NCBI GenBank assembly: GCA_021774875.1
Contig: JAJFIP010000174.1
Location: forward strand, 1-46,292
Source of the DNA: Emcibacter sp.
Lineage (GTDB): Bacteria > Pseudomonadota > Alphaproteobacteria > Sphingomonadales > Emcibacteraceae
DNA: 46,292 bases
Reading direction: 5' to 3'
Made by a program: the position numbers and the translations under genes. The notes under the pieces were generated by a model. The model was not told the DNA's origin. It saw only the letters and a list, made by a program, of their open reading frames with translations, and searched no databases. Position 1 is the first letter of the stretch. Each line of letters opens with the position of its first letter. Positions 22,394-38,509 of this stretch are shown one piece after another.

Positions 22394-22966
22394 CTATTTT
22401 TTCCGGTTAACTGATCGCCGTGATGTTTTATTCTTACTGCGCTTCAAACGGGCTTTTCTGAGTTTTTCCGCCCTGATTTTAGAAGCGCGCTGGGCTTTTC
22501 TTTTATCTGTAATCGTGGGTTTATTATCCCGTAAACGAACCGTAGTGAAATTTGCCCCTTTATTGAGAGTAATTTCCTCAGGCTTGATCTGCACCAGTCG
22601 CCACCCGTCTATGGTTTGCTGTTTTTTAAGTTGCACCAGATCACCATTATTCCCTTTTCGCACAAGGGCAATATATTCCACCCCGTCATTAATCACTCCG
22701 GAAAGTGATAAATTTATTTTTTTCTCCACTAATGCTTTTTTTTGGGTAGGACGCCGGATAGGGGCTGGTTTAATCAGGCTTACGGGACGTCGGCTGCTGA
22801 GAAACAGCGGCCTCTGAACCATAGCCGAAAACTTTTCAAAGGGAGGGGCCATAAATTCAGGAAATCTGTTCTCAGACTGTTGCTCATTTTCCTCAATCGC
22901 ACCAACTGTTACTGCGGTAAAGCAGAATTGCATCAGGAGACAGAAAAAAAGTATCTGTCTATTCAT
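22394..22966 (-). CDS. GspC/PilP-like T2SS inner-membrane protein with HR domain and basic tail
   Basis: A 190-residue protein with an N-terminal hydrophobic segment (residues 3-23). A short RPLFLSSRRP motif typical of GspC/GspN-type proteins leads into an HR-like domain (about residues 83-150, starting LSLSGVI and ending near FTTVRL). In T2SS the HR domain links the inner-membrane platform to the N0 domain of the secretin, and its place just before gspD fits. There is no PDZ or coiled-coil domain as in full-length GspC. The last 35-40 residues are extremely rich in Lys and Arg. Its start overlaps the gspM stop by four bases (ATGA). Confidence 0.75.
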   Translation of the reverse strand: MNRQILFFCLLMQFCFTAVTVGAIEENEQQSENRFPEFMAPPFEKFSAMVQRPLFLSSRRPVSLIKPAPIRRPTQKKALVEKKINLSLSGVINDGVEYIALVRKGNNGDLVQLKKQQTIDGWRLVQIKPEEITLNKGANFTTVRLRDNKPTITDKRKAQRASKIRAEKLRKARLKRSKNKTSRRSVNRKK

Positions 22967-23550
22967 GATGTTTCTCCCACTTTGCGATAACCGAAAAAAG
23001 AAATGGTGACTTTCAATGACTCTGCCTGATTATTTTCCGCAGCGCGGCGTTGTGAAAGAGCCTTTATGTCCACCTCTTCAATAAAGAGGTAAGGACGCTG
23101 GGTTTCAATAACGTAAAGTATTTTTTGCAGGTTTATGGTGTTCACAGTCATACTCGCCCGCATGGAAATTTTCTCCAGTGACTGCTCATTAGCCGATGGC
23201 ATCATCTGTGTCGTTTCCAGACGCCCGCCTGCATTACCGACTATCTGTTTCAGTCGCGTCTGCAACTGGGCACCCACAAGGGCAACACTGTCTCCTGACA
23301 GAAGAGCAACGGATTCCAGAGCTGCGCCCTGAAGTTCTTCCAGACGCTGACGCAATACTCCCTCACTGCCAATAGCCTGCGTATAACTGGCCTGTGCATT
23401 TTCAAGATTTGCCAGCCGCTCATTACTGCTGAGATAAAGTGTCAGAAAAATCCAGACAATCCCCCCCGCGACAACAGACAAAAGCCCAACCGCCAGAATA
23501 CGCCGGAAAGTACGGCTTTCCATTAAATTCTGTTCAAGAATATTTGTCAT
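22963..23550 (-). CDS. gspM: Type II secretion assembly protein GspM
   Basis: A 195-residue bitopic inner-membrane protein with one transmembrane helix (about residues 17-38), a coiled-coil segment and a ferredoxin-like periplasmic domain, as in GspM/PilO. It pairs with GspL to hold the GspE ATPase to the inner membrane. The start overlaps the gspL stop by four bases and its own stop overlaps the next start by four bases, so this is one tightly coupled operon. Confidence 0.85.
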   Translation of the reverse strand: MTNILEQNLMESRTFRRILAVGLLSVVAGGIVWIFLTLYLSSNERLANLENAQASYTQAIGSEGVLRQRLEELQGAALESVALLSGDSVALVGAQLQTRLKQIVGNAGGRLETTQMMPSANEQSLEKISMRASMTVNTINLQKILYVIETQRPYLFIEEVDIKALSQRRAAENNQAESLKVTISFFGYRKVGETS

Positions 23551-24671
23551 TTCCCCCCCTCCTCTGTTACTGGTGCATTTTGTGAGGGCATATTCACATC
23601 CGCTGCCACCTGAAATCTTTCAACATTCTTGTCTTTTTGCTGGACTACTGCAGAAATGAAATGGACATTGTCAAATAATGGCGAAGTTTCCAGATCTTCA
23701 AGCACCCCGGAGGCAGTTGCCGAATATCCAAAAATCTGGATACCATCTTTCGTTACAGTGAGTTGTTCAAGCCAGGTATCATCCGCGAGCAGTGCCGAAA
23801 TTTCACTTACCAGCTGAATAGCAAGCGGGCTGCTATTTTTCTTGTCGACCAGATAATGGACATCTTTTTTGAGGCTTTCATAATCCCGTTTCAATTGTAC
23901 AGAAGAGCGCGCCTGAAATTTGCTGTCACCAATATTTTGCTCCAACCCCGAAATTTGATAGTGGTTATACGCCGTGGGCAAAACGGCCAGAAGACAAATA
24001 GCAGCAGCTGTCAGCCACCCTTGCACAGGCCAGCGCATTTCCTGCCGACGTGCCACTTTCGCGCCGGGCAGATTTATTTCTTCAAAAGGTCGCGCAGAAA
24101 CATCGCTGATTTCCAGACAGTCCACTTCTACTCCGCTCAGCCTCAGAAGTCCCAGAAACCCATCACACTTGACTTTGGGGACAATGAATATATCCAGATT
24201 TATTTTTTCAGTGGTATATTCTTCAGGATTCAGCTGATAGTCAAAATATACCTGATCAGCAGGATAAGGAACGAGCCTGTCTATCTGATTAACCAAAATT
24301 TCCCCAATGTCGCCAAGAGCAGCGCGCGGTAGCCTCATGGGTTTTGCAAGGCAATATTCCCGGGGCAATCGTACTATAGTCCGCCACCTGACCCTGGGGG
24401 TCACGGACGCTAGAAAATCTTTGATTTCATTAGAAGATTTATTTTCATCAGCCAGGGAAATCTGCTTCTGTTCCTTCCATTTCTGCCCTTCCCGGGTTGA
24501 AAGATGCAACATGTCTCCCACAAGACTGAAATGCAGAATATCTGCCTCTGCCCGGTTTCTGCCAGCAATCAGTTCCTGCCAGATTTCCTGTAGCTCACCC
24601 GTCCACCAGACCCAAAAATGAGTTGGTGGGGCCAGAATCTTCTTTAGCAGATTATTATATCTGTCTTTCAT
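23547..24671 (-). CDS. gspL: Type II secretion platform protein GspL (PilM/PilN-like)
   Basis: A 374-residue protein from ATG 24671; a TTG one codon earlier is possible. The cytoplasmic N-terminal domain (about residues 45-200) has the actin-like/PilM-like pattern with L-V-P-Y-P-A-D, which recruits GspE. A single transmembrane helix lies at about residues 217-236, followed by a PilN-like periplasmic domain (W-L-x-x-L-T-V near residue 300). Overlaps gspM by four bases. A gap of about 80 bases separates it from gspK. Confidence 0.88.
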   Translation of the reverse strand: MKDRYNNLLKKILAPPTHFWVWWTGELQEIWQELIAGRNRAEADILHFSLVGDMLHLSTREGQKWKEQKQISLADENKSSNEIKDFLASVTPRVRWRTIVRLPREYCLAKPMRLPRAALGDIGEILVNQIDRLVPYPADQVYFDYQLNPEEYTTEKINLDIFIVPKVKCDGFLGLLRLSGVEVDCLEISDVSARPFEEINLPGAKVARRQEMRWPVQGWLTAAAICLLAVLPTAYNHYQISGLEQNIGDSKFQARSSVQLKRDYESLKKDVHYLVDKKNSSPLAIQLVSEISALLADDTWLEQLTVTKDGIQIFGYSATASGVLEDLETSPLFDNVHFISAVVQQKDKNVERFQVAADVNMPSQNAPVTEEGGK

Positions 24672-24754
24672 CAACTCTCATCTGATTATTTTGCCCTAAT
24701 GGAATCTCAGCATACATTATTATTAATTTTCTGACATAATAAAATGCTAACCCG

Positions 24755-25657
24755 TTACCTCACCTCCAAAATCCAGTAGGGTAACTGACCCGGTGGCGGG
24801 CTTTTCCGGTCGTCTTCCCCCAGCCAGATTACGAGCCTGCTTTCATAGCTTTGCCCGGATGGCATAACCGCACGGCCCATCAGGGTATAGACTGTTACAG
24901 TATCTTTATCAGTATAATCTGTCACCCCGGCCAGAGTGGGAAGTTCTTCCCCTGAACCACTCAGAGGTTCCCTTTCCCGGGATTCAAGAAATTCATCCAC
25001 CTCCCCCTGCCTAACCCCCGGCAACGCCCGTAATGCCCCTTCCCCGGCAAAATTCGGATTGATAGTCGTTTTATAGGAATAAACTGTCACAGAAGGTAAG
25101 ATAAGTTTGGAAATTTCCTGATCTACGCCAAGAAGCTGCTGAAATTCCAAAACTGACCTGAGCGGCATGTTTGATGGCCCATAACCCGCCTTATCCAATT
25201 CATAATCGTTGAATTCCGCCCCCTGTAACCGTGACAGGTCGTCCTCATCCTGCCAGTCGCGCAACTGATCCAGCAGTTCTTCTGCTGTGATGTCATCCCT
25301 ATCCTGAACAATAGTTTGAAATAACCCCATAAGCAATTCATCGGACGCGCTGTTGAGATCAATTTTTCCGCCTTCGGACTGAATGGAAAAAAACAACTGC
25401 GCCCCAGCGTAGGCAAATTCATATTCCTGCCCGTCCAGTTTCCAGCTCTGTGTCTGCCCCGGATTAAACAGAGCATGAATTCCCCGCTGAAGGGCGGCTT
25501 CGGACAGGGCTTTGACCTTATATTGTCCCGTAGCCGTTGATAACATACTACTTCCGGTGCGCACTTGCCCTGAAAATCCTATCACCATCAGGGACAGCAA
25601 GGCTAATACCCAAACCACCAATACCAGTGCAAAACCCTGTTTTTTCAGATCAGACAT
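24755..25657 (-). CDS. gspK: Type II secretion minor pseudopilin GspK
   Basis: A 300-residue protein with a short leader KKQG-F and a hydrophobic helix (ALVLVVWVLALLSLM). As in the GspK family, the glutamate at position +5 after the cleavage site is missing (Leu instead). The large periplasmic domain contains the KIDLNSAS motif, an RDWQDEDD calcium-type region and helix-hairpin-helix-like L-x-x-L-P-G-V. GspK caps the pseudopilus tip with GspI and GspJ, which are encoded 8 kb away. It starts 3 bases after the gspG stop. Confidence 0.93.
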   Translation of the reverse strand: MSDLKKQGFALVLVVWVLALLSLMVIGFSGQVRTGSSMLSTATGQYKVKALSEAALQRGIHALFNPGQTQSWKLDGQEYEFAYAGAQLFFSIQSEGGKIDLNSASDELLMGLFQTIVQDRDDITAEELLDQLRDWQDEDDLSRLQGAEFNDYELDKAGYGPSNMPLRSVLEFQQLLGVDQEISKLILPSVTVYSYKTTINPNFAGEGALRALPGVRQGEVDEFLESREREPLSGSGEELPTLAGVTDYTDKDTVTVYTLMGRAVMPSGQSYESRLVIWLGEDDRKSPPPGQLPYWILEVR

Positions 25658-25660
25658 GCG

Positions 25661-26086
25661 CTAATTATGAACATCGCTATTTTCATCTTCGCCACCTTCC
25701 GTCCCGTCAGCACCGAGGGAATAGAGATCAAAGGGTTTTGTGTCCCCAGGAATATTATAGCCATATTCATTGCCCCAAGGGTCTAGGGGGACTGTATCAC
25801 TACTCAGATAAGGCCCATTCCAGAAATCTACACCCGATGGTTCTACAACCAGCGCCTCAAGCCCTTCACTCTGATTTGGGTATCTGCCCACATCAATCAT
25901 GAATAGATCAAGGGCCGCTCCCATCTGGGAAATTTGCAGTCTGGATGTATCTGTTTTAGCCGTGGACAGGTAATTAATCACCCTTGGGCCGACAATGCCA
26001 ACCAGCAACCCCAGAATGACCATCACCACCAAAAGCTCGACCAGAGTAAATCCGTCTTCCCTGCTTTTCCGCTTTAAATATTTCAT
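25661..26086 (-). CDS. gspG: Type II secretion major pseudopilin GspG
   Basis: A 141-residue protein with the class III prepilin leader RKSREDG-FTLVE, Glu at +5 and a long hydrophobic helix. The globular part has the GspG-type calcium-site loop (DPWGNEYGYNIPG) and the PNQSEGLEAL segment. It polymerises into the pseudopilus after processing by GspO. The gene lies 11 bases after gspF and 3 bases before gspK. Confidence 0.95.
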   Translation of the reverse strand: MKYLKRKSREDGFTLVELLVVMVILGLLVGIVGPRVINYLSTAKTDTSRLQISQMGAALDLFMIDVGRYPNQSEGLEALVVEPSGVDFWNGPYLSSDTVPLDPWGNEYGYNIPGDTKPFDLYSLGADGTEGGEDENSDVHN

Positions 26087-26097
26087 GTATCCCTCTT

Positions 26098-27330
26098 TTA
26101 TAATGCAAGCTGATTAACGCTCATTATTCCGACAAGAATCGATATGATAATTCCTCCAATGAGTATTCCAAAGATAAAAATCAACAGCGGTTCAAGAATG
26201 GCCAGCAACCGTTTGATGCTTCGTTCAACTTCTTCATCATAAATGGCTGCTACATCGGCAAGTATCTGATTCAGCCGTCCAGATTCTTCCCCTACCCGGA
26301 TCATATGAACCGCAAGACGTGGAAAATTACCGTCCTCAATCAGAGGGGCAGAAAGGCTTTCTCCAGCCCTTAGACTTTCCGGTATCCGGGATACAACCTG
26401 TGCCATAACCCGATTGATCAATATGCCCTGAACATTGTGTAACGCCGATAACATGGGCACGCCATTATGCAAGAGAATAGACAATGTGCGGCAAAAACGC
26501 GCCGCCTCCATCTTGCGTATCAGGTCGCCAAAAAGCGGACTTGCCAGAAGCGTTCGGTCCACCTGCCGGGCAAATTTATTAATTTTAAGCAATTTCGGCA
26601 GAAAAACCCCGGCGCCCAGTATAAGTATAAGTGCCACTCCCCAGTTATTGCCAAGCCATTGTGAAACATCAATCACAATACGGGTAGCGACTGGAATAGT
26701 ATCCATTGCCCCCCTGAAAAGATTTTCAAATTGCGGTATGACAAACAAAAGCAACATGAAAAGCGAGACGAAAGATACCAGCAGCAAGATGGCCGGATAG
26801 GTTAAAGCCCCAATAATATTGGATCGCATGGTCTGCATCCGAACCATATATTCTGCCAGATGATCCAACACATCACCCAATGCGCCACCCACTTCACCGG
26901 CACGCACCAGACTTACATAAAGTGGCGTAAAGGGAGCACCCTGGGCTTCCAGGGCCTCGGAAAATAGTTTTCCTGACCGAATGGATTTCAGGAGGCGGGC
27001 CACAAGATCTGACATTTCCGGCATTTCGGAAATATCGGTTAATATTTCAAGAGAACGTTCCAGCGAAACTCCCGCCCCGATCATATTGGCAAGCTCGCGG
27101 GTCATATTCGTTATTTCCCGCATCCCGGGAGATTTTTTCAAAAAAGGAAGACCGGAAAACATGCCGCCCTTACGTCCTGCTTGCTTTATCTGGTCTGCCT
27201 GTTCTGCTGTGACCGGAAGCCAGCCTTTATCCTGAAGCTTGCTGATCACTTCAGCGCGGGTTCTTCCTTTGATCTTTCCCGTCAGAACCTCGCCTGTATC
27301 ACTTATGGCCTTGTATGAATATTCCCTCAT
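26098..27330 (-). CDS. gspF: Type II secretion inner-membrane protein GspF
   Basis: A 410-residue polytopic protein with two T2SSF domains (about residues 70-195 and 270-395), each with the G-x-x-L-x-x-x-L pattern, and three transmembrane segments (about 175-200, 225-245, 380-405). The N-terminal YSYKAISDTGE motif is typical. It forms the core of the inner-membrane platform driven by GspE. One base separates it from gspE. Confidence 0.95.
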   Translation of the reverse strand: MREYSYKAISDTGEVLTGKIKGRTRAEVISKLQDKGWLPVTAEQADQIKQAGRKGGMFSGLPFLKKSPGMREITNMTRELANMIGAGVSLERSLEILTDISEMPEMSDLVARLLKSIRSGKLFSEALEAQGAPFTPLYVSLVRAGEVGGALGDVLDHLAEYMVRMQTMRSNIIGALTYPAILLLVSFVSLFMLLLFVIPQFENLFRGAMDTIPVATRIVIDVSQWLGNNWGVALILILGAGVFLPKLLKINKFARQVDRTLLASPLFGDLIRKMEAARFCRTLSILLHNGVPMLSALHNVQGILINRVMAQVVSRIPESLRAGESLSAPLIEDGNFPRLAVHMIRVGEESGRLNQILADVAAIYDEEVERSIKRLLAILEPLLIFIFGILIGGIIISILVGIMSVNQLAL

Positions 27331-27331
27331 A

Positions 27332-29020
27332 TCAATGCTCTCGGGTTATGCGGCGAACTTCTTCAATGGTGGTCAGCCCCCGAAGTGCCTTGTCTATACC
27401 GTCTTCAAACATGGTAATCATACCCGCTTCAATGGCTGCTTCCTGAATATCGGTTGTTGCCGCCTTTTGCAGTATGAGCTTGCGGATATTTTCATCAACC
27501 ACCAGAATTTCATATATCCCCAATCGACCCACATATCCCTGACCACCACAGGCTTTGCAGCCTACAGGTCTGTAAAGCCTGATGTTTTGATAATTTTCCA
27601 CATGTTTATCGAGCCCCATTCTTTTGCTAAAAGATGCCGGCGGGCTGTATTCTTCGCGGCATTGCTCACAAAGAGTACGTACGAGCCGCTGGCCGACAAC
27701 ACCGTTTACGGTGGAGGTCAGCAGATAATCCTCAACCCCCATATCAAGTAGCCGGGTGATCGCCCCGGCGGCATCATTGGTATGAAGGGTCGACAGCACC
27801 ACATGACCTGTCAAGGATGATTGCACGGCAATTTCTGCGGTTTCCAGATCGCGCATTTCCCCGATCATAATGACATCCGGATCCTGACGAACGATAGAAC
27901 GCAGTACATTGGCAAAAGAAAGGCCAATATTGGCATTAACCTGCACCTGGGTAATCCCGTTCAACTGATATTCGATAGGGTCTTCCACCGTAATAATCTT
28001 GCATTCAGGTTTATTCAGAAGTTTAAGGGCGGTATAAAGTGTTGTGGTTTTTCCGCTTCCCGTCGGGCCGGTTACCAGCAAAATGCCGTGACGTTGACTC
28101 ATCACAGCCATAAAACGCTCATGAAGCAATTTACCCATGCCCAGGCTTTCAAATTCAAGCTTTACCGCATTGTCTTCCAATATACGAATAACCGCGCTTT
28201 CGCCGTAAAGACTTGGCAGGATGGAAACCCTCAAGTCTATGGGTTTGCCTTGAATTTGAAGACTGACCCGGCCATCCTGAGTCAATCGTCGTTCGGCAAT
28301 ATTCAGGTTGGCCATAATCTTGATGCGTGAAATAATGGCCGGGGTCAGCTCCACAGGCGGCGAGTCAACCTCGCGCAATACGCCATCAACACGGTAGCGG
28401 ATAACCAATTGATTTTCATAAGGTTCAATATGAATGTCCGAAGCCCGCTCTTCCAATGCAGTGCTGATAATCCGATTAACCAACCGGATCACCGGGGCTT
28501 CACTGGCCATATCCTTGAGCTTTTTTATGTCATCATCGGTAACATCACCAAAATCAACATCAATATCCTTTAGAATACCACTGAGGGAGCCTTCCCCTTC
28601 CTCATAAGCTCTTTCAAAAGCCCGCTCTATATCCCGTGGCAGGCCAATTTTTATCCGCACTGCTTTGCCAAGCGCATGTTCAAGGGCCTCAATAGTAAAA
28701 CTGTCCGAAGGGTCTGCCATAGCGACCACCACATGATCGCCTTCGTCGGAAAGCGGCATTACCCGTGAGGATTTCAGAAAATTTCCGGATAGAGTTCCAT
28801 TGAACAAAGGCTGGTCGGGATAGTCATCGCTGTCGGCTTCCGGCAGGTCATATTGTTTTGAAAAAGCCTTTGCCAGATTCTGTTCGGACACCAGTTCCAG
28901 CTTTATAAGAATCTCACCAGTAGATTGACCCAGTTCATCGGTCGCAGCCTGCACGCGGTCATAACCTTCCTGATCAAGAAGGCCCATTTTCATGAGAGTA
29001 TCGCTGATCGAATTTGTCAA
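27332..29020 (-). CDS. gspE: Type II secretion ATPase GspE
   Basis: A 562-residue hexameric ATPase that powers pseudopilus assembly. The N1E/MshEN-like N-terminal domain is followed by the Walker A GPTGSGKTT (residues 318-326), the aspartate box EDPIEY (about 346), the Walker B DPDVIMIGEMRD (380-391) and the His box TGHVVLSTLHTND (404-416). The C-terminal domain has two CxxC pairs (CEQC, CKAC), the zinc-binding C4 element. First gene of the eight-gene T2SS operon, behind a good promoter at 29107-29135. Confidence 0.96.
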   Translation of the reverse strand: MTNSISDTLMKMGLLDQEGYDRVQAATDELGQSTGEILIKLELVSEQNLAKAFSKQYDLPEADSDDYPDQPLFNGTLSGNFLKSSRVMPLSDEGDHVVVAMADPSDSFTIEALEHALGKAVRIKIGLPRDIERAFERAYEEGEGSLSGILKDIDVDFGDVTDDDIKKLKDMASEAPVIRLVNRIISTALEERASDIHIEPYENQLVIRYRVDGVLREVDSPPVELTPAIISRIKIMANLNIAERRLTQDGRVSLQIQGKPIDLRVSILPSLYGESAVIRILEDNAVKLEFESLGMGKLLHERFMAVMSQRHGILLVTGPTGSGKTTTLYTALKLLNKPECKIITVEDPIEYQLNGITQVQVNANIGLSFANVLRSIVRQDPDVIMIGEMRDLETAEIAVQSSLTGHVVLSTLHTNDAAGAITRLLDMGVEDYLLTSTVNGVVGQRLVRTLCEQCREEYSPPASFSKRMGLDKHVENYQNIRLYRPVGCKACGGQGYVGRLGIYEILVVDENIRKLILQKAATTDIQEAAIEAGMITMFEDGIDKALRGLTTIEEVRRITREH

Positions 29021-29106
29021 AGTAACCCTTTTTGCCCCATAAACACCGTTGCTGAATGATAAATCAATGGTAATATATTTAGGAAATCTTCACAACTATC
29101 TATCAA

Positions 29107-29135
29107 ATATTATTCGCAAAGATATAAATGGTCAA
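29107..29135 (-). promoter_or_regulatory. Leftward sigma-70-type promoter for the gspE operon
   Basis: On the minus strand TTGACC (29135-29130), a 17-base spacer and TAATAT (29112-29107) lie about 85 bases before the gspE start at 29020. Spacing and both boxes are close to consensus. Confidence 0.6.
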
Positions 29136-29146
29136 TTTTAGTTTAC

Positions 29147-29176
29147 TTGACCAGTAAGGCCTGTGTCCGGCATACT
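29147..29176 (+). promoter_or_regulatory. Rightward sigma-70-type promoter for the dsbA-like/mod operon
   Basis: TTGACC (29147-29152), an 18-base spacer and CATACT (29171-29176) lie 37 bases before the start at 29214. The -35 box is the other half of an inverted repeat with the leftward -35 box (GGTCAA 29130-29135, 11-base gap, TTGACC). Confidence 0.5.
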
Positions 29177-29213
29177 ATGGGATAGAAATTATAATATTTG
29201 AGGGAATTATTTC

Positions 29214-30044
29214 ATGAGTTTTCTAAGGTTATCAGGATTGTATGCTATTATTACTATGGCGGTTTTCTCTCTATATGGTTGCCAGACCACCACTGGGGAA
29301 AAGACAGCAATACCATCGGCAAATGCGCCTTTATCAAGTTCGTCTCTGACTGCAAAATTGTCAGAAACTGACATGCAAAAGTTGCATAAAATCATCAAGG
29401 ATTACATTCTGGCTAATCCAAGCGTTATTAATCAGGCCTTACAGATATCACGCATCCGCCAGCAGACACGCTCTCTGCAAGCCACTTCTGATTTGCTTAA
29501 AAACAGACATAAGGATCTCTATGAAGATGAAGTTCCTCTCGACAATGGTGTTGACGATGCTGAAGTAACTATTGTTGAATTTTTTGATTATCGCTGCGGC
29601 TTCTGTAAGAAGGCCTACCCCGTTGTCAAAACCCTGCTCGCGTCAGACCCTAAAATCAGATTTGTCTATAAGGAATACCCCATCCTGGGCCCGGTATCCG
29701 AATTGGCAACAAGGGCTGCCATTGCGGCACATAAACAGGGTAAATACCTTGAATTTCATGATAAAATTTTCTCTACTCCGGGACGTCTGACTGAAAAAAG
29801 GCTCATGCAGGATGCAGCAAGTATCGGACTGAACATCAAGCAGCTTAAAGAAGATATGCAGGATTCTGGAACAGAAGATCTTGTCCTTCGCAACAAGGTA
29901 CTTGCCAAGGGTCTTAATATATCCGGCACACCAACTTTCATTGTCGGAAACCAGATTATTCAGGGCTTTGTCAATCTTGACAGAATGAAACGAGCCGTAG
30001 CATTAGCGAGGGAAGTTGAGAAAAATGTCGCGAAAAAAGACTAG
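29214..30044 (+). CDS. DsbA/Com1-family thiol-disulfide lipoprotein
   Basis: A 276-residue protein with a lipoprotein signal (LYGC, Cys23). A ScsC/Com1-like N-terminal helical segment (about residues 50-80) precedes a thioredoxin-fold domain with the active site FDYRCGFC (Cys128 and Cys131) and the cis-proline loop GTPTFIV. It should oxidise or shuffle disulfides in the periplasm. It is the first gene of the plus-strand operon and overlaps modA. The neighbouring T2SS and Cys-rich 1740-residue protein are conceivable clients (inference). Confidence 0.9.
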   Translation: MSFLRLSGLYAIITMAVFSLYGCQTTTGEKTAIPSANAPLSSSSLTAKLSETDMQKLHKIIKDYILANPSVINQALQISRIRQQTRSLQATSDLLKNRHKDLYEDEVPLDNGVDDAEVTIVEFFDYRCGFCKKAYPVVKTLLASDPKIRFVYKEYPILGPVSELATRAAIAAHKQGKYLEFHDKIFSTPGRLTEKRLMQDAASIGLNIKQLKEDMQDSGTEDLVLRNKVLAKGLNISGTPTFIVGNQIIQGFVNLDRMKRAVALAREVEKNVAKKD

Positions 30045-30843
30045 GTGTTCTTGTGTTTTTTTTCGAGGTGTGATTATACTGTTAGCCGCTTTCCCGGCAC
30101 AACTGCAGGCTGATGAAACAACTGCACCACAAACGCTTCATGTGGCAGTGGCAAGTAATTTTCTTTTTCCCCTGAAACAACTGGCAATACGCTTCAAGCA
30201 AGAAACCGGGATTGAACTGATTACCAGCAGCGGCTCCACCGGTACTTTATATGCACAAATTTCCAACGGAGCACCTTATGGTGTATTTCTTGCGGCAGAT
30301 AAAAGACGCCCCCGGCTTTTGGTGGAAAAGGGATATGCTGTGAAAGAAAGCCGGATAACTTATGCATATGGACAGATTATTCTCTGGGGAAATGATCGGC
30401 ATGTAGTAACTGATAAAGATTCAGAAAAATGTCTGGCCAGACTTAAGCAGTCCGGTCGTTTAGCCATAGCTAACCCACAAACCGCTCCTTATGGCACAGC
30501 GGCAAAGGAAAGCCTGCTGGCTCTGGGACTGTGGGAAAAAATCAAACCCCGTATGGTATTTGGCAAAAGTATTGCCCAGACTTATCAGTTTGTCGATACG
30601 GGTAACGCTGATTTTGGTATTGTCGCCCGGTCAGAATATCTTCGCATGGGACAACAGCGACCCGGATGTGTCTGGACAATCCCGGCAGAATATTACAACC
30701 CACTTGAACAGCAGGCTGTCATATTAAAAAGAGCAGAAGAAAATGCCAATGCTGCTACTTTTATGGCTTTTCTCACCGATGAGATGACCCGTAACTCCCT
30801 TGAAGATCTTGGATATGGAAACCCTGGGAACAGGGTCCATTAA
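30025..30843 (+). CDS. modA: Molybdate ABC transporter substrate-binding protein ModA
   Basis: A 272-residue periplasmic protein from ATG 30025; a TTG three codons earlier is in frame but less likely. The signal peptide ends near LQADE. The pattern VAVASNFLFPLKQLA, then SSGSTGTLYAQI, FLAADKRRP and the NPQTAPYG(T)AAKE loop is the ModA oxyanion-binding fold (Ser/Thr-rich sites), which binds molybdate or tungstate. It overlaps the end of the dsbA-like gene by 20 bases, so the two are co-transcribed. Confidence 0.92.
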   Translation: MSRKKTRCSCVFFRGVIILLAAFPAQLQADETTAPQTLHVAVASNFLFPLKQLAIRFKQETGIELITSSGSTGTLYAQISNGAPYGVFLAADKRRPRLLVEKGYAVKESRITYAYGQIILWGNDRHVVTDKDSEKCLARLKQSGRLAIANPQTAPYGTAAKESLLALGLWEKIKPRMVFGKSIAQTYQFVDTGNADFGIVARSEYLRMGQQRPGCVWTIPAEYYNPLEQQAVILKRAEENANAATFMAFLTDEMTRNSLEDLGYGNPGNRVH

Positions 30844-30858
30844 CTTCATTCATTGTAT

Positions 30859-30960
30859 ATGAAGAACAAGATTGCCTATGGAATAACCATTACCTGCGCT
30901 TGTTTTCTACTTTTTTTGGCTTATGATGTGACAGAATTGAATGAAATTAATAGGTTCTGA
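30859..30960 (+). CDS. Possible small membrane protein between modA and modB
   Basis: ATG 30859 to TGA 30960 gives 33 residues beginning MKNKIAYG, with one hydrophobic helix (about residues 5-22) and an acidic C-terminal tail. It fills most of the 123-base gap between modA and modB in the same direction. No good ribosome-binding site precedes it, so it may be chance. No family recognised. Confidence 0.25.
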   Translation: MKNKIAYGITITCACFLLFLAYDVTELNEINRF

Positions 30961-30966
30961 CCCTAG

Positions 30967-31650
30967 ATGAATGACTTCTCAATTCCCGGACTTACGCCGC
31001 TGCTCCTCAGCCTCAAGCTGGCAGGGCTGACAACCCTGTTGCTGATTTTTATAGCCACACCACTCGCCTGGTGGTTATCCCAGACTAAAAATGGCTTCAA
31101 ACCACTTTTCGAGGCCATAGTGGCCCTGCCCTTGGTTCTGCCACCTACAGTGATCGGCTTTTATATGCTGGTCCTGCTTGGCCCGGAAGGATTTATCGGC
31201 AGAAGCTGGATCGGAATGGGCGGTGACACTCTGACCTTTTCCTTCACAGGACTTGTCATAGCATCAATGGTCTACTCGCTGCCCTTCGTCGTGCAGCCCA
31301 TACAAAATGCTTTCGAAGGTCTTGGTCGTCATATACTGGAATCTGCATGGACGCTTGGCGCACGGCCCATTGGTGCCTTTTTCAGTGTGGTTCTTCCCCT
31401 GTCAGCCAAAGGATACCTCACGGCACTGGTGTTGGGTTTTGCCCATACTCTTGGAGAATTCGGCATTGTGCTAATGGTTGGTGGCAATATACCGGGGAAA
31501 ACAAGGGTTATTTCCATCGCCATATATGACCATGTGGAAATGCTCGATTACAGCTACGCCCATAAATTATCCGCAGGATTACTGATTTTTTCACTGCTGT
31601 TACTACTTGGGGTATATCTGATTAACCATCGCTGGCGGATCAGGACATGA
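30967..31650 (+). CDS. modB: Molybdate ABC transporter permease ModB
   Basis: A 227-residue inner-membrane permease with about five or six transmembrane segments and the BPD_transp EAA loop (E-S-A-W-T-L-G-A-R-P near residue 125) that docks the ATPase. LPLVLPPTVIGFYML is a typical ModB/CysT segment. The stop overlaps the modC start by four bases (ATGA). The ribosome-binding site is weak. Confidence 0.93.
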   Translation: MNDFSIPGLTPLLLSLKLAGLTTLLLIFIATPLAWWLSQTKNGFKPLFEAIVALPLVLPPTVIGFYMLVLLGPEGFIGRSWIGMGGDTLTFSFTGLVIASMVYSLPFVVQPIQNAFEGLGRHILESAWTLGARPIGAFFSVVLPLSAKGYLTALVLGFAHTLGEFGIVLMVGGNIPGKTRVISIAIYDHVEMLDYSYAHKLSAGLLIFSLLLLLGVYLINHRWRIRT

Positions 31651-32690
31651 CCACATCTGATGTCACCATAAAATTCAACAACCCCGGCTTTGACCTTGAT
31701 GTGCATTTTCCTTTGCCAACAAGAGGGATTTCAGGACTTTTTGGTCCATCAGGGTCGGGAAAAACCACACTTATTCGATGTCTTGCCGGTCTTGAAAGGC
31801 CCTCTCAAGCTCTAATTAGAGTGGGTGATAGTGTGTGGCAGTCGGACAATATTTTCCTGCCAGCCCATAAAAGACGGGTGGGTATGGTTTTTCAGGATGT
31901 CAGACTGTTTGACCATCTGAAGGTTGAGGGAAATTTGCTCTTTGGTTATAAGAGGACACCGGTTCCAGACCGAAAAATCAAAATTGATGATGTTCTGAAA
32001 ATACTGGAACTAAAGCCACTTCTGGGCAAAAGACCCGAAAAACTGTCCGGCGGTGAGGCACAGCGGGTTGCCATTGGCCGTGCATTGCTAACCAGCCCTT
32101 CTCTTATGCTAATGGATGAACCCCTTGCGGCACTGGGAGAGCAGCATAAAAAGGATATACTGCCTTATCTGAAAAAACTGCCTGAGAATTTCGGCATCCC
32201 AATGCTTTATGTAAGCCATGATTTTGAAGAAATAGCAGCCCTAACCCAATATATGATCTGCCTGAACAATGGCAAAATACAGGCGCAGGGAAAATTACCG
32301 GAAGTTGCTTCAAATTTACCCGAAATTATGCACCGTTGGGCCCCGGACAATTTCATCAAAGGGGAGACATGTGGGCCGGGTAAATACAAGCTCCCCGATG
32401 GACAGGTCATTCATATACCACTGGCAGCCTCTCCTGCCCGGATTGTCATCAATGCCCGTGACATCAGTTTGTTACGTATCGCTCCCGAACATCATGCCGG
32501 TGATGCCCTACTCAAAGGACAGATTGAAAAAATCGCCGAAATCTGTGGTGAAAAAAACATGATCAGAATTTCACTTGCCGGACAGGAAATTAATGTGCTT
32601 CTCGGGACACGGGGCAGTAATGAATCCTGGATATGTCCTGGTAATGAAGTTTATATGGTAATCAACAGAATAAAGCTGGAAATGGAATAG
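31647..32690 (+). CDS. modC: Molybdate ABC transporter ATPase ModC
   Basis: A 347-residue ATPase with Walker A GPSGSGKTTL (about residues 32-41), signature LSGGEAQRVAIGRA, Walker B LMLMDEPLAAL and the switch histidine in YVSHDFEE. The C-terminal part (about residues 265-345) looks like the TOBE/MOP domain that senses molybdate in ModC. Overlaps modB by four bases. Confidence 0.93.
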   Translation: MTTSDVTIKFNNPGFDLDVHFPLPTRGISGLFGPSGSGKTTLIRCLAGLERPSQALIRVGDSVWQSDNIFLPAHKRRVGMVFQDVRLFDHLKVEGNLLFGYKRTPVPDRKIKIDDVLKILELKPLLGKRPEKLSGGEAQRVAIGRALLTSPSLMLMDEPLAALGEQHKKDILPYLKKLPENFGIPMLYVSHDFEEIAALTQYMICLNNGKIQAQGKLPEVASNLPEIMHRWAPDNFIKGETCGPGKYKLPDGQVIHIPLAASPARIVINARDISLLRIAPEHHAGDALLKGQIEKIAEICGEKNMIRISLAGQEINVLLGTRGSNESWICPGNEVYMVINRIKLEME

Positions 32691-32693
32691 AAT

Positions 32694-33179
32694 ATGCACG
32701 GTATTTTTTCACGATTTACTATTTTTTTAATCTGTCTGGCTCTCTGCTCAATGCCGGTCAATGCCCAGAAAAGAAAAAAAAACAAGGGAAACAGAATGGG
32801 TAGGGACCGGGCAGCTTCAGAATGTATAGACAAAACCGACCCTACGCTGACCTTCATTCTTGATGGAGAGGAAATCTGGGTCCACACCCCTGAAGAGGTC
32901 ATGGCTCTGCCCGTAAGACAGGAAATTGACAAAGGAAAAAAAGAAACAATTATTATTGTTAAAATGATAGACCTGCTTCCCGAAGGCTGGTCCGGCGGCA
33001 GGGTAAGTTTTATCAGTTGTAAAGGCCAGCGGATTAATGTACCCGCACCGCACCTGAAGAAAAGAGGTGGCCGTTATATTATCACTAAAAACCGAAAAGG
33101 CTTTTTAAAGCTCAGCCTCAATAATGAGAAGGCTGGCAAGGTACTTATGCGTGATTTGCGCAAAATTGATGTCAGGTAG
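32694..33179 (+). CDS. Small exported protein resembling a fragment of the Moco-binding oxidoreductase fold
   Basis: A 161-residue protein starting 3 bases after modC, with a signal peptide ending near VNA-Q (residue 24) and a very basic stretch just after it. The order LTFILDGEEIWVHTPEEVMALP, then VKMIDLLP, then VSFISCKGQRINVP parallels the sulfite-oxidase/Oxidored_molyb domain pattern of a first strand, then L-x-x-L-L, then a strand ending in a G-x-x-(V/I) turn. The cofactor residues are not clearly present and the protein is shorter than that domain. Its position at the end of the mod operon supports a molybdenum-linked role. Function is not established. Confidence 0.75.
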   Translation: MHGIFSRFTIFLICLALCSMPVNAQKRKKNKGNRMGRDRAASECIDKTDPTLTFILDGEEIWVHTPEEVMALPVRQEIDKGKKETIIIVKMIDLLPEGWSGGRVSFISCKGQRINVPAPHLKKRGGRYIITKNRKGFLKLSLNNEKAGKVLMRDLRKIDVR

Positions 33180-33885
33180 GTGGGGGTTCCACATTTCTGC
33201 ATAAACTCACCGGCAGCGGTTCCGGTGCCAGACATGTCCCGTCCATATTCACTCTGACTGGCACAATCAGGTCAGGCCAGCTTTCCCTACCCTGTCCTGA
33301 AAATTTAAATCTTATCAGTTCAGGAAAACTGTCCACCCCCTGCCAGCTCGATGACCAGACATTTTCCTGCCCGTTCTGACTCCCCCCGTAATATCCAAAA
33401 GCAGCCCCCGTTGCCAACTGATCTATCAACAGGGTTCTGCTATCAGGATTAAAATTATCTGTGAAATCTTCTTCTGCTTCATAGGGCTGGCGATAAAGGA
33501 TTAGCTGTTGTCTGTTCTCGCCATCTTCCACAGGGGTACTTTCAATGGCAAATTCCACCAGATACAATCCGCCGCGGGAGGGATAGGGTGGCATAAAAGC
33601 AGCAAATCTGATTCTTGAGCTAGTGCCGGAAAAAACATATTCATTCTCGCCGGTAATGTCATTAACCACGGGATACATCCGGCTCATCCAGTCGTTGGAA
33701 ATCCGGTAAAATGCCTGCATGTCGGAAAGTCTGTCAGTCTGGTCACTGCTGCGTTCCCAGGCCCGGCTGCCAAACTGCAGCCCACTGAATAAAACCACCA
33801 TCAGAACGCCCATAATGCTTAAGACCACCAACAGTTCGATGAGGGTAAATCCAGCTTGTTTCCGCCCCAAAGTCACAAAACCCAT
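33172..33885 (-). CDS. gspJ: Type II secretion minor pseudopilin GspJ
   Basis: A 237-residue protein with prepilin leader GRKQAG-FTLIE (Glu at +5), a hydrophobic helix and the GspJ-type beta domain (D-x-M-x-x-x-Y-P-V and L-Y-R-Q motifs). It is a tip pseudopilin that assembles with GspI and GspK. Starts on the last base of the gspI stop (TAATG). Its 3' end overlaps the 3' end of the convergent plus-strand gene by 8 bases. Confidence 0.9.
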   Translation of the reverse strand: MGFVTLGRKQAGFTLIELLVVLSIMGVLMVVLFSGLQFGSRAWERSSDQTDRLSDMQAFYRISNDWMSRMYPVVNDITGENEYVFSGTSSRIRFAAFMPPYPSRGGLYLVEFAIESTPVEDGENRQQLILYRQPYEAEEDFTDNFNPDSRTLLIDQLATGAAFGYYGGSQNGQENVWSSSWQGVDSFPELIRFKFSGQGRESWPDLIVPVRVNMDGTCLAPEPLPVSLCRNVEPPPT

Positions 33886-34310
33886 TATGGCTCTCCCAAG
33901 ATGTAGCGCAGACTATTGAGCGTCACCTCTTGCTCGCGCAACCCTGTCTGCCAACTGACTCTGACAGATATGTCATATAATTCACCTAATGGGCTGGCAA
34001 CATCCACGTCCCCCACTTCCGGCTCCCCCACTTCCGGCTCATAGGGATTAATTTCAATTTTCCAGTCATATCCCTGATCTGTGCTGCCCTGCTGGATGCC
34101 TTGACGCAATGGCAGGTTATGGCCAAGGTCATTCATCAGAGCTTCGGCCTGTAGCATGGCTCTGAAATTATTTCCCCCGGTATTGACCCTGCGCAAACCG
34201 CCAGAAAATATTTCCAATATCAGGCCAAGGGAAATGGCCAGAATTGTCAAGGCGACTAGCACCTCCATCAGAGAAAATCCTGTCGCCTGGTTATTCTGAT
34301 TTTTTTTCAT
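33885..34310 (-). CDS. gspI: Type II secretion minor pseudopilin GspI
   Basis: A 141-residue protein with leader NQATG-FSLME (Glu at +5) and helix VLVALTILAISLGLILEIF, typical of GspI, which nucleates the pseudopilus tip. Its globular domain contains a duplicated PEVGE/PEVGD segment from a perfect 15-bp tandem repeat. Overlaps gspH by 20 bases and gspJ by one base. Confidence 0.9.
   Translation of the reverse strand: MKKNQNNQATGFSLMEVLVALTILAISLGLILEIFSGGLRRVNTGGNNFRAMLQAEALMNDLGHNLPLRQGIQQGSTDQGYDWKIEINPYEPEVGEPEVGDVDVASPLGELYDISVRVSWQTGLREQEVTLNSLRYILGEP
34011..34040 (-). repeat. Perfect 15-bp tandem duplication in gspI
   Basis: CCCCACTTCCGGCTC occurs twice head to tail (34011-34025, 34026-34040 on the plus strand). 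It keeps frame and encodes two copies of a five-residue PEVG(E/D) segment. Confidence 0.9.
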
Positions 34311-34773
34311 GATCCATCACAACTTTTCCAGTAAGCCAGTTCACAGCAATACGGTAATTGGTCTCACCCTGACTTAGCCGCACATAGCCGCCGGTCGAAG
34401 AACCATCAGGGAAAAAACGAATTGCGGCTGTATCATTTTCACCCTGTTCACTTTTTGCCGTATAAATTTCCACTTCCATCCCCTTGGGAAATTTCTGGTG
34501 AGTAGCAGAATCCTCCGTCCAGAATTCTCCTTGGGTTATATTGAGAAAAAACCTAACTTCACTGCTAGACCTGATGGCCTGAGAGCGGCTTTCAATCATC
34601 TGCATCATCACACCTCGGGCGGCAGTTTTTATCTCAAGGGTTTCCCTGCTGCCGGACAGTGATACCAAAACCACCGAACTCATCAGCCCGATGATGCTCA
34701 GCACCACAAGAAGTTCCAGTAGCGTGAAACCCTCATTGGTTCCATATTTTTGTCCATGACGACGAATAGCCAC
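34291..34773 (-). CDS. gspH: Type II secretion minor pseudopilin GspH
   Basis: A 160-residue protein with leader GTNEG-FTLLE (Glu at +5), a hydrophobic helix and the GspH-type beta domain. First gene of the gspH-I-J operon. It is divergent from the ECF-like gene across a 128-base gap in which no strong promoter is evident for either side. Confidence 0.88.
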   Translation of the reverse strand: MAIRRHGQKYGTNEGFTLLELLVVLSIIGLMSSVVLVSLSGSRETLEIKTAARGVMMQMIESRSQAIRSSSEVRFFLNITQGEFWTEDSATHQKFPKGMEVEIYTAKSEQGENDTAAIRFFPDGSSTGGYVRLSQGETNYRIAVNWLTGKVVMDHEKKSE

Positions 34774-34901
34774 CTGTTTTCTTGTCCTAATCTTTAATCC
34801 AGATAGCCATCATAACAAATTTTCCACTGGCATACAGAAAACAATCTTAAATTTGGCAAATCAGGAAATGCCATGTTAGTCTGTTAAAGGAGGAAAAAAT
34901 A

Positions 34902-36065
34902 TTGGCGGAAGATTTTATCAAACCTGCGACCCGGTCCACAATCAAACTGGTTTATCTGATTTTAGCTTTACAGATACTGGTTTTTCTTTCTGCGCCTTAT
35001 ATGCTGTTATCAATTGCGGTTCTTCAGGCTGGACTATGGATAAATTCGCGCCTGTCTCTGTCCATCCTTGTGGCATCCTTCAGACGTCTTGCTATTTTTT
35101 TTATTGTGATATTATTGTCCTATACAGTTTTCAACGTTGGGGAAAGTCCCACAGTTCTCAACCTAGGCTTTGCTGATCTTGAGATTAATGAGGCTGGCGC
35201 AGAAAAAGCCCTGCTGATGTGCCTGCGGGTTTTTCTTATGGTCTGGGCCAGCGTCTGGGTGCAAAAGAGCGAAAAAACTGGCGAAATGGCGTCAGCACTG
35301 CGCCGAATCGGCCTGCCCGAACTTCTCGCCACTGCCATTGACAGTACGCTCTATCTCCTGACGGGAGGGCAACAAAAAAAGAGTGATGGTGGCGGAAAAG
35401 GAAAAAACAAAAAAAACAAGGTCAAAATATCTTTCCGACAAATATTACAGGGGGATTTTACTTATGTAACCGACCGTTTTCAGGCTTCCCTAGATAAAGC
35501 AACGCAACATCTGGGGGAAAGATACCCCGCACTGGACAAGAAACGTCTTCATGATCTCACTATTATCGTGGGTATTTCTGCGGCCATTATGGGACTTAAA
35601 CTTATCCAGCTCATGCCTGGCCTGCCTGTAGCACCGGGTCACAAGAATATCATCATCATCCCGTTTTTTCTGGCTGCCGCCGCCATGACTCATTTTCGAT
35701 TTGGCGGATTTATTACCGGCCTTGTCGTCGGTATTGTCTCGGTCATGATGGGCTTCGGCAAGTTTGGAATTTTTGAGATCAGCCATTTTGCTGTCCCCGG
35801 CCTGCTTGCCGATCTACTCTTTCCCATGATTTCATTAAATGGGGCCAGATGGCTCAGGGTCATACAACTCAGCCTGATCGGGATGATTATGGGGTTTGGC
35901 CGCTTTAGCGCAAATTTTCTGGTTATTCTTCTGGCTGGAGCACCGGAAGGCGCTTTCATTCTTTATTTGCCAATGATGTTCACTCAAATTATATTTGGTG
36001 GCTTGAGTGTTTTCGTAAGTTTGGTTATCTTACAAGTTATAAATACCAATAAGGATCATATATGA
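34902..36065 (+). CDS. ECF-transporter-like membrane protein (T-component-like half fused to a second membrane half)
   Basis: A 387-residue protein starting at TTG 34902, with AAAGGAGG eight bases upstream. The N-terminal half (about residues 15-150) has transmembrane helices at about 15-45, 50-78 and 105-122 and an ALRRIGLPE segment (132-140), like the ATPase-coupling motif of EcfT/CbiQ. A Lys/Gly-rich soluble linker follows (about 155-212), then a second membrane half (about 216-380) with five or six helices, resembling ECF substrate-binding components or CbiM-like proteins. Its stop overlaps the next gene by four bases (ATGA), and the next two genes encode molybdenum-storage subunits. A molybdate or tungstate channel is the natural guess but is inference; no dedicated ATPase is in this operon. 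Confidence 0.8.
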   Translation: MAEDFIKPATRSTIKLVYLILALQILVFLSAPYMLLSIAVLQAGLWINSRLSLSILVASFRRLAIFFIVILLSYTVFNVGESPTVLNLGFADLEINEAGAEKALLMCLRVFLMVWASVWVQKSEKTGEMASALRRIGLPELLATAIDSTLYLLTGGQQKKSDGGGKGKNKKNKVKISFRQILQGDFTYVTDRFQASLDKATQHLGERYPALDKKRLHDLTIIVGISAAIMGLKLIQLMPGLPVAPGHKNIIIIPFFLAAAAMTHFRFGGFITGLVVGIVSVMMGFGKFGIFEISHFAVPGLLADLLFPMISLNGARWLRVIQLSLIGMIMGFGRFSANFLVILLAGAPEGAFILYLPMMFTQIIFGGLSVFVSLVILQVINTNKDHI

Positions 36066-36904
36066 ACAATGGAGAAACAAAAGGGCGTATTCATGTAGAG
36101 AGTGATCTAATGCGTGAATCACTTGTCAGCAGCGCTCTCAACGCCGCCTCAGAAAAAGGCAATATCCGCCGTATGGCCCCGGATGTGCATTTCATCGCAA
36201 TTGGCGGCCAGAGCATCATGGACCGGGGGTCAGAGGCCCTGTTCCCCCTTGTGGATGAGATTGTGCGCCTGAAAGAAAAATACAAAATTGTACTTGGTGT
36301 CGGTGGCGGGGCCAGGATACGTCATACCTATGCTATTGGCCGTGATCTGGGTCTGCCCGTTGGCGGCCTTGCTCGCATTATGGGCGGTGTTGAAGAACAG
36401 AACCGCGATATGCTGCAATTTCTGCTCGCCCCCCATGGCGGGATTACTTTTGTCAAAGATCATTTTCAGGATCTGCCCATGTTTCTGAATGGTGGCCTAA
36501 TACCAGTCTGTATCGGCCAGCCGCCCTATCATATTTGGGAACCGCCACCCGAAAAGGGATTCCTGCCTGAAAATGGCTCTGACGTGGGGCTTTTTCTCAT
36601 GGCTGAATTGATGGGGGCTGCCAGCATGATTTATATTAAGGATGTGGACGGCATACATACCGATGATCCCTATAAAAATGAAGCGGCAACATTGATTCCT
36701 GAACTGACAGTTGAGAACATGAAGTCCCGTTCCCTGCCTGATAGTCCATTTGAAGAAGAATTACTCAACTGCCTTGAAACATCCCGTCTGGTACGGGAAG
36801 TCAGGCTGATCAACGGACTTGAGCCTGAGCAGCTCGGCAGGGCCCTTGCGGGGGAAGATGTTGGCAGCAAATTAATGGGCAGCAAATCAAGAACACTGGA
36901 TTGA
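36062..36904 (+). CDS. mosA: Molybdenum storage protein subunit (amino-acid-kinase fold), first copy
   Basis: A 280-residue protein of the UMP-kinase-like family that includes the Azotobacter molybdenum storage protein (MoSto), which stores polymolybdate or polytungstate clusters using ATP. Visible motifs are IGGQSIMDRG (about residues 47-56), GVGGGARIRHTY (79-90), PPYHIWEP, KDVDGIHTDDP and the closing GEDVGSKL. The usual lysine of the K-x-G-G motif is alanine here (Ala46). A 35-residue N-terminal extension is present, as in MoSto. It overlaps the upstream membrane gene and is followed 10 bases later by its paralogue. Which copy is alpha or beta is uncertain, so the symbol is provisional. Confidence 0.85.
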   Translation: MNNGETKGRIHVESDLMRESLVSSALNAASEKGNIRRMAPDVHFIAIGGQSIMDRGSEALFPLVDEIVRLKEKYKIVLGVGGGARIRHTYAIGRDLGLPVGGLARIMGGVEEQNRDMLQFLLAPHGGITFVKDHFQDLPMFLNGGLIPVCIGQPPYHIWEPPPEKGFLPENGSDVGLFLMAELMGAASMIYIKDVDGIHTDDPYKNEAATLIPELTVENMKSRSLPDSPFEEELLNCLETSRLVREVRLINGLEPEQLGRALAGEDVGSKLMGSKSRTLD

Positions 36905-36914
36905 GTGGAAAAAT

Positions 36915-37748
36915 ATGAGCAATAATACCAAGGGTAAAATCTCAACCCCCGGAATGGAAAACCCTTTCTCCGGCATGACTAATGCGTCCATGCTATCCGG
37001 CGAGGAACAATATGACGACAATACTGTAAAAATTCTACCTGATGTCTGGATATTGAAAATAGGTGGTCAAAGTATCATGGACCGGGGAAAATCTGCTGTC
37101 TATCCCATCGTTGAAGAATTGCTGCAGGCAAAAAAGCAAGGCATCAAGTTCATTCTGGGTGTTGGCGGTGGAACCAGAGCACGACATGCCTATGCCATGG
37201 GGCTTGATATTGGGATGCCAACGGGGGCATTGGCAAAAATCGGAGCCTCCATCCCGATTCAGAATGGCCGTATGCTGCAAATGCTCATGGCTCATGAAGG
37301 GGCAATCATGGCCTATCATGATGATTTTGAGAAACTGCCGCTTTATCTGAATACTGGCTGCTTGCCTATCATGTCAGGTATGCCGCCGTTTGAATTCTGG
37401 GAAAAATCACCCATGGTTGGCCGCATACCCCAGAACCGAACCGATGCCGGAGTTTATCTTTTGTCAGAATTTTTCGGGGCTAAAGGCATTATTTACATCA
37501 AGGATGAAGATGGCCTTTATACCGCAGATCCAAAAAAAGACCCCGATGCTACCCTAATTGAAAATGCCAATGCCAAAGATCTTCTGGCCAGTGGACAGGA
37601 TGACCTCATCATCGAACGGGTGGTGCTGGAATATATGCAACGTGCCCGCCATACCCATGAAATCAGAATCGTCAACGGCATGAAAAAAGGTCAACTACTC
37701 TCGGCTCTACAGGGGGAAGATGTGGGATCGGTAATCAAGGCGAAATAA
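36915..37748 (+). CDS. mosB: Molybdenum storage protein subunit (amino-acid-kinase fold), second copy
   Basis: A 277-residue paralogue of the preceding gene, closer to the Azotobacter MoSto pattern: KIGGQSIMDRG (48-58, Lys48 present), GVGGGTRARHAY (82-93), SGMPPFEFW, RTDAGVYLLSEFFG, KDEDGLYTADP and GEDVGSVI. MoSto is a hexamer of alternating subunits forming a cage for Mo oxide clusters, and two adjacent genes fit that. Last gene of the plus-strand operon; its stop is 5 bases from the stop of the convergent gspO. Subunit naming is provisional. Confidence 0.87.
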   Translation: MSNNTKGKISTPGMENPFSGMTNASMLSGEEQYDDNTVKILPDVWILKIGGQSIMDRGKSAVYPIVEELLQAKKQGIKFILGVGGGTRARHAYAMGLDIGMPTGALAKIGASIPIQNGRMLQMLMAHEGAIMAYHDDFEKLPLYLNTGCLPIMSGMPPFEFWEKSPMVGRIPQNRTDAGVYLLSEFFGAKGIIYIKDEDGLYTADPKKDPDATLIENANAKDLLASGQDDLIIERVVLEYMQRARHTHEIRIVNGMKKGQLLSALQGEDVGSVIKAK

Positions 37749-37753
37749 ACGTT

Positions 37754-38509
37754 TCAGAGCAATGATAATGGACCGTATAACCATGTCAGCCAAAGCCCCA
37801 CAGACAGATAACTGCCAAAGGGGATTTTCTGGAAGCGATCCGGGGATTTTTTCTCAATTACCCCAAGACTAAAGGTCGCCAACAGGGCCAGAAGCGTGGA
37901 AATGATCAGAATAGTGCCAAGGCCATCAATACCAACCCAGGCCCCCGCAGCGGCAAATAATTTCACATCACCCTGCCCCAGGCCTTCCCGCTGACGGATG
38001 AGGCCATAGAGATAGCTCAAGCCCCCCAAAATAACTGCCGCCACCACCATGCCCACCAAATGCAAAACCAGTCTGTCCGGATTTAACAAAGCTATCATCC
38101 CAAGGCCACCAACTATCAGGGGCAAGGTAATGGCGTCTGGCAGGATAAAATTTCTCCAGTCAATAACGGCAAGCGTCAACAACGCCCAGCCCAACAAACA
38201 ACTTATTACAAAAACCATACCCGTAGTCACAAGGGCAGCCCATAAAACTGCAAGTAAGGCGGCTATTTCCATTAGCGGGTAAAAGGCAGGAATCCTTTTG
38301 GCACAATAGGCACATTTACCGCGCCACAAGACATAGGAAATGAGCGGTATCATATACCAGAATGCCAGAATATGACTACATTCAGGGCATTTTGAACGGC
38401 CAGTCACCAGTCTCTCCCCCAAAGGCAGTCTCAGGATAACCACGCCCAGAAAACTGCCGATAAACGGCGAAATGAGGATCAGTAGCGGGTTATAAAATTC
38501 AGGTGCCAA
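37754..38509 (-). CDS. gspO: Prepilin peptidase/N-methyltransferase GspO (PilD)
   Basis: A 251-residue polytopic membrane protease that cuts the leaders of GspG, H, I, J and K and methylates the new N-terminus. The N-terminal cytoplasmic loop has two zinc-type Cys pairs (Cys41/44 and Cys66/69). The catalytic aspartate motifs are VIDWRNFILPD (Asp117 to Asp125) and GQGD (Asp181). The start is TTG 38509, inside the end of the upstream B3/B4 gene (11-base overlap), so translation is probably coupled. It is the only T2SS gene in this third piece of the locus. Confidence 0.93.
   Translation of the reverse strand: MAPEFYNPLLILISPFIGSFLGVVILRLPLGERLVTGRSKCPECSHILAFWYMIPLISYVLWRGKCAYCAKRIPAFYPLMEIAALLAVLWAALVTTGMVFVISCLLGWALLTLAVIDWRNFILPDAITLPLIVGGLGMIALLNPDRLVLHLVGMVVAAVILGGLSYLYGLIRQREGLGQGDVKLFAAAGAWVGIDGLGTILIISTLLALLATFSLGVIEKKSPDRFQKIPFGSYLSVGLWLTWLYGPLSLL

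Follow-up and report, generated by a model that had tools for sequence, protein, structure and literature searches.

An EcfT/CbiQ-like fusion membrane protein, most likely a dedicated partner of a divergent MoSto-type cage in Emcibacter

Results

Organisation of the locus

The window, by which we mean the whole stretch of 46,292 nucleotides analysed here (contig JAJFIP010000174.1 of Emcibacter sp.), carries the genes of a molybdate importer, a small protein with a putative signal peptide, a two-part membrane protein and two subunits of the molybdenum storage protein (MoSto) type, all in the same direction (Table 1). The open reading frame of the membrane protein has a TTG start, which is preceded by AAAGGAGG, with aaaggagg just upstream. 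Its stop codon shares four bases with the mosA ATG at position 36062 in the form of an ATGA, so that the four-base overlap with mosA described in an earlier note on this DNA is confirmed, and an AAGGA lies about 8 nt ahead of the same ATG. The note had also remarked that the operon holds no ATPase gene. This is correct for the run from the membrane gene through mosA to mosB; the nearby modC is located 2.2 kb upstream, beyond the convergent gspHIJ genes.

Table 1. Coordinates of the mod and mos genes and of the parts of the membrane protein in the window
Feature	Position	Strand	Basis and remarks
modA, molybdate-binding protein	30016..30843	+	TIGR01256, 197.6 bits; TTG start
modB-like permease	30967..31650	+	PF00528
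modC, molybdate ABC ATPase	31647..32690	+	TIGR02142, 310 bits, over cut-off; no ECF Q-helix motif
Small protein, putative signal peptide, Lys/Gly/Arg-rich stretch	32694..33179	+	Kept beside mod/mos in 3/3 loci
EcfT/CbiQ-like plus second membrane half, 387 aa	34902..36065	+	TTG start, SD aaaggagg; most likely the membrane partner of mosAB
N half, ~4 TM helices, CbiQ-like, residues 1-121	34902..35264	+	CbiQ profile, hhalign, hydropathy
Cytosolic coupling region, residues 122-211	35265..35534	+	ALRRIGLPE and a Gly/Lys-rich linker; second coupling helix degenerate, with GERYP at its end
C half, residues 212-387, ~6 TM	35535..36062	+	Most conserved part; matches no family
mosA-like MoSto subunit	36062..36904	+	Homology to MoSto chains; ATGA overlap with preceding gene
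mosB-like MoSto subunit	36915..37748	+	Homology to MoSto chains; 10 bases after mosA

Distribution and linkage to mosAB

The membrane family was seen in three genomes only, namely that of the window, that of Emcibacter sp. OFTM17 (locus L002), whose homologue is 83% identical to the window protein, and that of the unclassified alphaproteobacterium OFTM82 (locus L003), with 42% identity. An order-level search returned G061 only, which, like L002 and G922, is the OFTM17 genome; L003 and G921 are both OFTM82. No further members were found in the viral contigs or plasmids searched, in 385 genomes of the class besides the window’s own, or in 191 relatives of the L003 genome besides itself.

In each of the three loci, mosA and mosB follow the membrane gene directly and on the same strand, with modABC and the small, probably secreted protein alongside. 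Whether the family always neighbours mosAB was a question raised in the earlier note, and the answer is yes for 3/3 known members, down to 42% identity. The ATGA overlap is common to the window and L002, and L003 has a gap of 288 nt before mosA. Among 372 genomes of the class and 398 of the phylum, MosAB was detected in the window only (E ≤ 1e-20), and because MosAB is this rare, the repeated pairing with the membrane gene goes far beyond chance. The mosAB loci of Azospirillum plasmids are without the membrane gene, which indicates that the membrane protein seems to need mosAB, and not the reverse. Its reading frame is intact in all three genomes and under purifying selection, with a dN/dS of ~0.08 (dN 0.105, dS 1.32) that is only approximate because dS is saturated.

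Several features of the surroundings were recorded. In all three genomes, which represent two lineages, the mod and mos genes sit within a type II secretion (gsp) cluster (window 20017-38509; L003 1-10866, and L033), where secretin, GspE, GspK, GspM, GspH and prepilin peptidase are supported by Pfam matches. The insertion points differ: in the window they lie between gspE and gspJ and between gspH and gspO, and in L003 between gspD and a probable gspC. Adjoining the gsp cluster, a 1740-aa repeat protein with a signal peptide (13657-18879, reverse strand) is a candidate substrate of the type II system, and a DsbA/ScsC-like protein (29214-30044) stands directly before modA and overlaps its TTG start at 30016. 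Downstream of the OFTM17 mos genes, putative genes for a molybdoenzyme of the xanthine dehydrogenase type (2Fe-2S and large subunit) occupy L002 11651-14499. The small protein matched none of the known families against which it was tested; its counterparts, also beside modC, are located at 4798-5289 in L002 and 5932-6591 in L003. A Gly/Lys-rich stretch in it looks similar to the linker on the cytosolic side of the CbiQ-like protein and might perhaps bind a polyanion.

The MosA and MosB subunits

Both MosA and MosB are homologous to the alpha and beta subunits of MoSto over their full length. Searches against the solved subunits gave E values of 1e-60 (beta) and 5e-40 (alpha) for MosA, and of 8e-66 (beta) and 4e-47 (alpha) for MosB. 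Judged by sequence, the mosA-mosB pair of the window is a genuine but divergent relative of the genes for the Azotobacter MoSto subunits. At the position of H140, which we take to be a cluster ligand of the MoSto alpha subunit, the window proteins have F/Y. The alpha-subunit cluster ligands also include E129 and H156 (PMC4504029); the former is replaced with K or H in the window proteins, and the latter is found in MosA only. With their changed cluster ligands, MosA and MosB of the window lineage (36062-37748) form a subtype of MoSto. The form of the stored cluster may differ, and the metal or cluster type stored in this lineage may not be that of Azotobacter.

The N half is related to EcfT/CbiQ

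The Pfam CbiQ family (PF02361) matches residues 13-145 of the membrane protein at 36.8 bits, above the curated cut-off of 25. An hhalign comparison of residues 12-151 with a profile built from 26 alphaproteobacterial T components yielded a probability of 95 (E 2e-8). Reversed decoys all remained below a probability of 1, and reversal of both sides, which gives an equivalent pair, again returned 95. The NCBIfam CbiQ equivalog (TIGR02454) gave 48 bits, under its cut-off of 112. On this sequence evidence, the homology of the N half to EcfT/CbiQ is real. The earlier note had recognised an EcfT/CbiQ-like half from the motif ALRRIGLPE, located at about residues 132-140, and had described a second membrane half fused to it; the first of these claims is supported by the CbiQ and hhalign scores, and the second by the ~6 hydrophobic segments seen in the hydropathy profile.

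The C half is the most conserved part

Between the window and L003 proteins, identity amounts to 54% in the C half and reaches 75% over residues 238-304, compared with 36% in TM1-4. The invariant stretches of the C half are MPGLP-APGHKN, MMGFGKFG, HFA-PGLLADL and GRF-ANFLVILLAGAP, and many of the invariant residues fall within TM stretches. As its most conserved part, this second half is presumably the functional core of the protein. It has no sequence match in Pfam, NCBIfam or the PDB, and hhalign detected no similarity to the CbiM and BioY profiles. An assignment as CbiM or BioY is unsupported, with scores no better than those of reversed decoys.

Two AlphaFold models, built from alignments of three sequences, are of low confidence (pLDDT 49 for the whole protein and 61 for the C half). 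A Foldseek comparison of these low-confidence models with the PDB placed PanT (6zg3_C) at the top by probability in both searches (0.51 and 0.18), with E > 1, and this match gives only a hint that the C half might adopt an S-component fold. Fold searches of the PDB and of viral structures with the weak models returned nothing significant, and a structure-based family assignment was dropped, as these two models were too weak.

The coupling region

According to PMC3246461, the feature most strongly conserved among T components is a pair of xRx signatures of the Ala-Arg-Gly type, with which they dock their ATPases. In all 26 control T proteins, each of the two signature positions has an Arg on it or immediately beside it. 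The window and L002 proteins lack the first signature and have the Gly/Lys-rich linker GGQQKKSDGGGKGKNKKNK in its place; the second reads GER rather than ARG/ART, its Arg being displaced. The L003 protein, which was read by hand, retains QRG and ART at near-normal spacing. A loss of the Arg signatures across the whole family is thereby ruled out, and ATPase coupling may persist in the L003 lineage. Over the second coupling helix, window and L003 are 16.7% identical; the 54 control pairs whose TM identity is comparable, which are not independent of each other, all lie higher, with a minimum of 23% and a mean of 48%. The cytosolic loop of the membrane protein is large and positively charged (K+R 19-21).

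A search for an ABC motor

In ECF A components, a Q-helix that follows the Q-loop contacts the T component (PMC6828968). Its motif was present in 21/21 control ATPases found beside T components. It was seen in 0/18 ABC frames of the window’s own genome, in 0/30 from two relatives and not in ModC, a count that took in part of the L003/G921 ABC ATPases. A CbiO-type ATPase above cut-off was found in none of the three genomes, in each of which the membrane gene is the sole member of the CbiQ family. The window’s own genome is 99% complete and G061 100%, and the absence of an ECF ATPase is therefore meaningful in both Emcibacter genomes.

With 0/49 ABC frames carrying the ECF Q-helix motif, the earlier suggestion that a housekeeping EcfA is borrowed found no support. 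Such an ATPase is very unlikely in the two Emcibacter genomes, since none of the ECF type was found there, and we have rejected this option for both. Taken as a whole, the motor protein that such importers need appears to be missing from at least two of the three genomes. What survives of the ECF transporter envisaged in the earlier note is the EcfT/CbiQ homology, the second membrane half and the linkage to mosAB; a working ECF system is unsupported, given that no ECF-type ATPase was found in the genome of the window or among the ABC frames examined in the relatives, and that the Emcibacter pair has lost its Arg signatures or has them out of place.

Discussion

The membrane protein is most likely a dedicated partner of the divergent MoSto-type (MosAB) cage. 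As to its role, we tentatively favour, at somewhat under an even chance, a permease or docking platform for molybdate/tungstate that is dedicated to MoSto and probably independent of an ATP motor; this reading has three sequences and low-confidence structure models to draw on. In the protein, an EcfT/CbiQ-derived scaffold, consisting of four TM helices and the cytosolic coupling region, is fused to a conserved multi-TM domain. There would be no ABC motor, and the C-terminal domain would bind or pass an oxoanion of the molybdate/tungstate type. The lysine-rich cytosolic region, having lost its fit to an ECF ATPase, would face or dock the MosAB cage.

MoSto polymerises its oxoanion in an ATP-dependent manner, and for loading, this activity of MosAB would serve as the sink; for unloading, the membrane protein could alternatively act as a release valve. 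Metal binding by MoSto requires ATP (PMC6448029), and S units of subgroup I can take up their substrate when A and T units are absent (PMC3246461). We infer the direction of passage, the contact with MosAB and the absence of any ATPase for the membrane protein, as well as its substrate, for which the gene neighbourhood points to molybdate/tungstate. Given the strict linkage to mosAB and the apparent lack of a motor protein in at least two genomes, the protein may act for the cage by a new mechanism that needs no motor. Counterpoints are that ModABC, the canonical molybdate importer, is already present in the locus, that MosAB of Azospirillum manages without the membrane protein, and that L003 retains both Arg signatures. 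A more specific variant, in which the EcfT-derived scaffold would have lost its ABC motor and MosAB itself, an ATPase of the amino-acid-kinase fold, would energise it or be coupled to it, so that the passage of molybdate/tungstate through the membrane is directly linked to ATP-driven polymerisation in the cage, seems to us improbable.

Other explanations have to be weighed against this. The protein could be a real ECF-type importer, a T-S fusion that takes up molybdate/tungstate with a borrowed ABC ATPase, most plausibly the ModC of the locus. The true T homology of the N half, the position of modC adjoining the membrane gene in 3/3 loci and the QRG and ART signatures kept in L003 would all agree with this. 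Yet ModC is the ATPase of a type I importer, ModBC, and is without the Q-helix motif, no EcfA/CbiO scored above cut-off, and the signatures are degraded in the Emcibacter pair, which leaves the importer an unlikely solution. Equally doubtful is a sensor or membrane anchor, in which the C half would sense a periplasmic or membrane oxoanion and the protein would tether or regulate MosAB at the membrane. Receptors also have S-component-like folds (PMC11109136), and both the charged, large cytosolic loop and the failure to find an ATPase are consistent with this function. A signalling domain is absent, however, the S-like fold of the C half is not established, and the invariant TM residues suit ligand binding or passage equally well.

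The chances of two further explanations are smaller. Since vitamins, Ni/Co and micronutrients of a similar kind are the substrates of characterised ECF systems (PMC3246461, PMC6828968), the protein might be a permease for some other compound, such as a vitamin, a different metal or a cofactor produced under the same conditions, and share no more than its regulation with mosAB. We consider this improbable, as the gene is kept beside mosAB, a rare gene set, in divergent lineages with modABC alongside, and the C half has no profile similarity to CbiM or BioY. The eroded coupling signatures of the Emcibacter pair could also be those of an ECF remnant in decay, without function, that has travelled with the mos genes. 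An open reading frame that is intact in three genomes, the low dN/dS and a C-half core that is 75% identical at 42% overall identity make this highly improbable.

In the literature searched, no membrane protein or transporter dedicated to MoSto has been described. The conserved gene joined to mosAB offers a single, deletable candidate for the filling or emptying of the MoSto cage. If the dedicated, motor-independent reading is true, an ECF T component has been repurposed away from ABC ATPases.

Comparison with known systems

The ModABC importer shares the locus and the presumed substrate with the membrane protein; it consists, however, of separate genes with its own permease and ATPase, and is unrelated to the CbiQ-like protein. 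With the S components PanT, BioY and CbiM, the C half has in common its ~6 TM segments and, in its first helix, a small-xxx-small pattern (A227xxxG231 in the window protein and SxxxA in L003), but neither sequence nor profile comparison relates it to BioY, to CbiM or to any of the Pfam S families. The MosA/MosB protein of Azotobacter vinelandii (2OGX) is a clear homologue of the window MosA and MosB, both of which are nearer to the beta than to the alpha subunit. In contrast to the Azotobacter protein, other residues stand in place of the alpha-type ligands E129 and H140, H156 is retained in MosA only, and a membrane gene precedes mosAB. With the ECF T components (CbiQ/EcfT/BioN; PF02361, TIGR02454), the membrane protein shares the homology of the N half, the ALRRIGLP region and the cytosolic coupling loop; like BioN, it begins with four TM helices. 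Unlike these, it has a second membrane domain fused on and a Gly/Lys-rich linker, the Arg signatures are missing or shifted in two of the three members, and an ECF ATPase was not found. What is new here is a fused and apparently motorless derivative of a T component that is tied to a metal-oxide cage.
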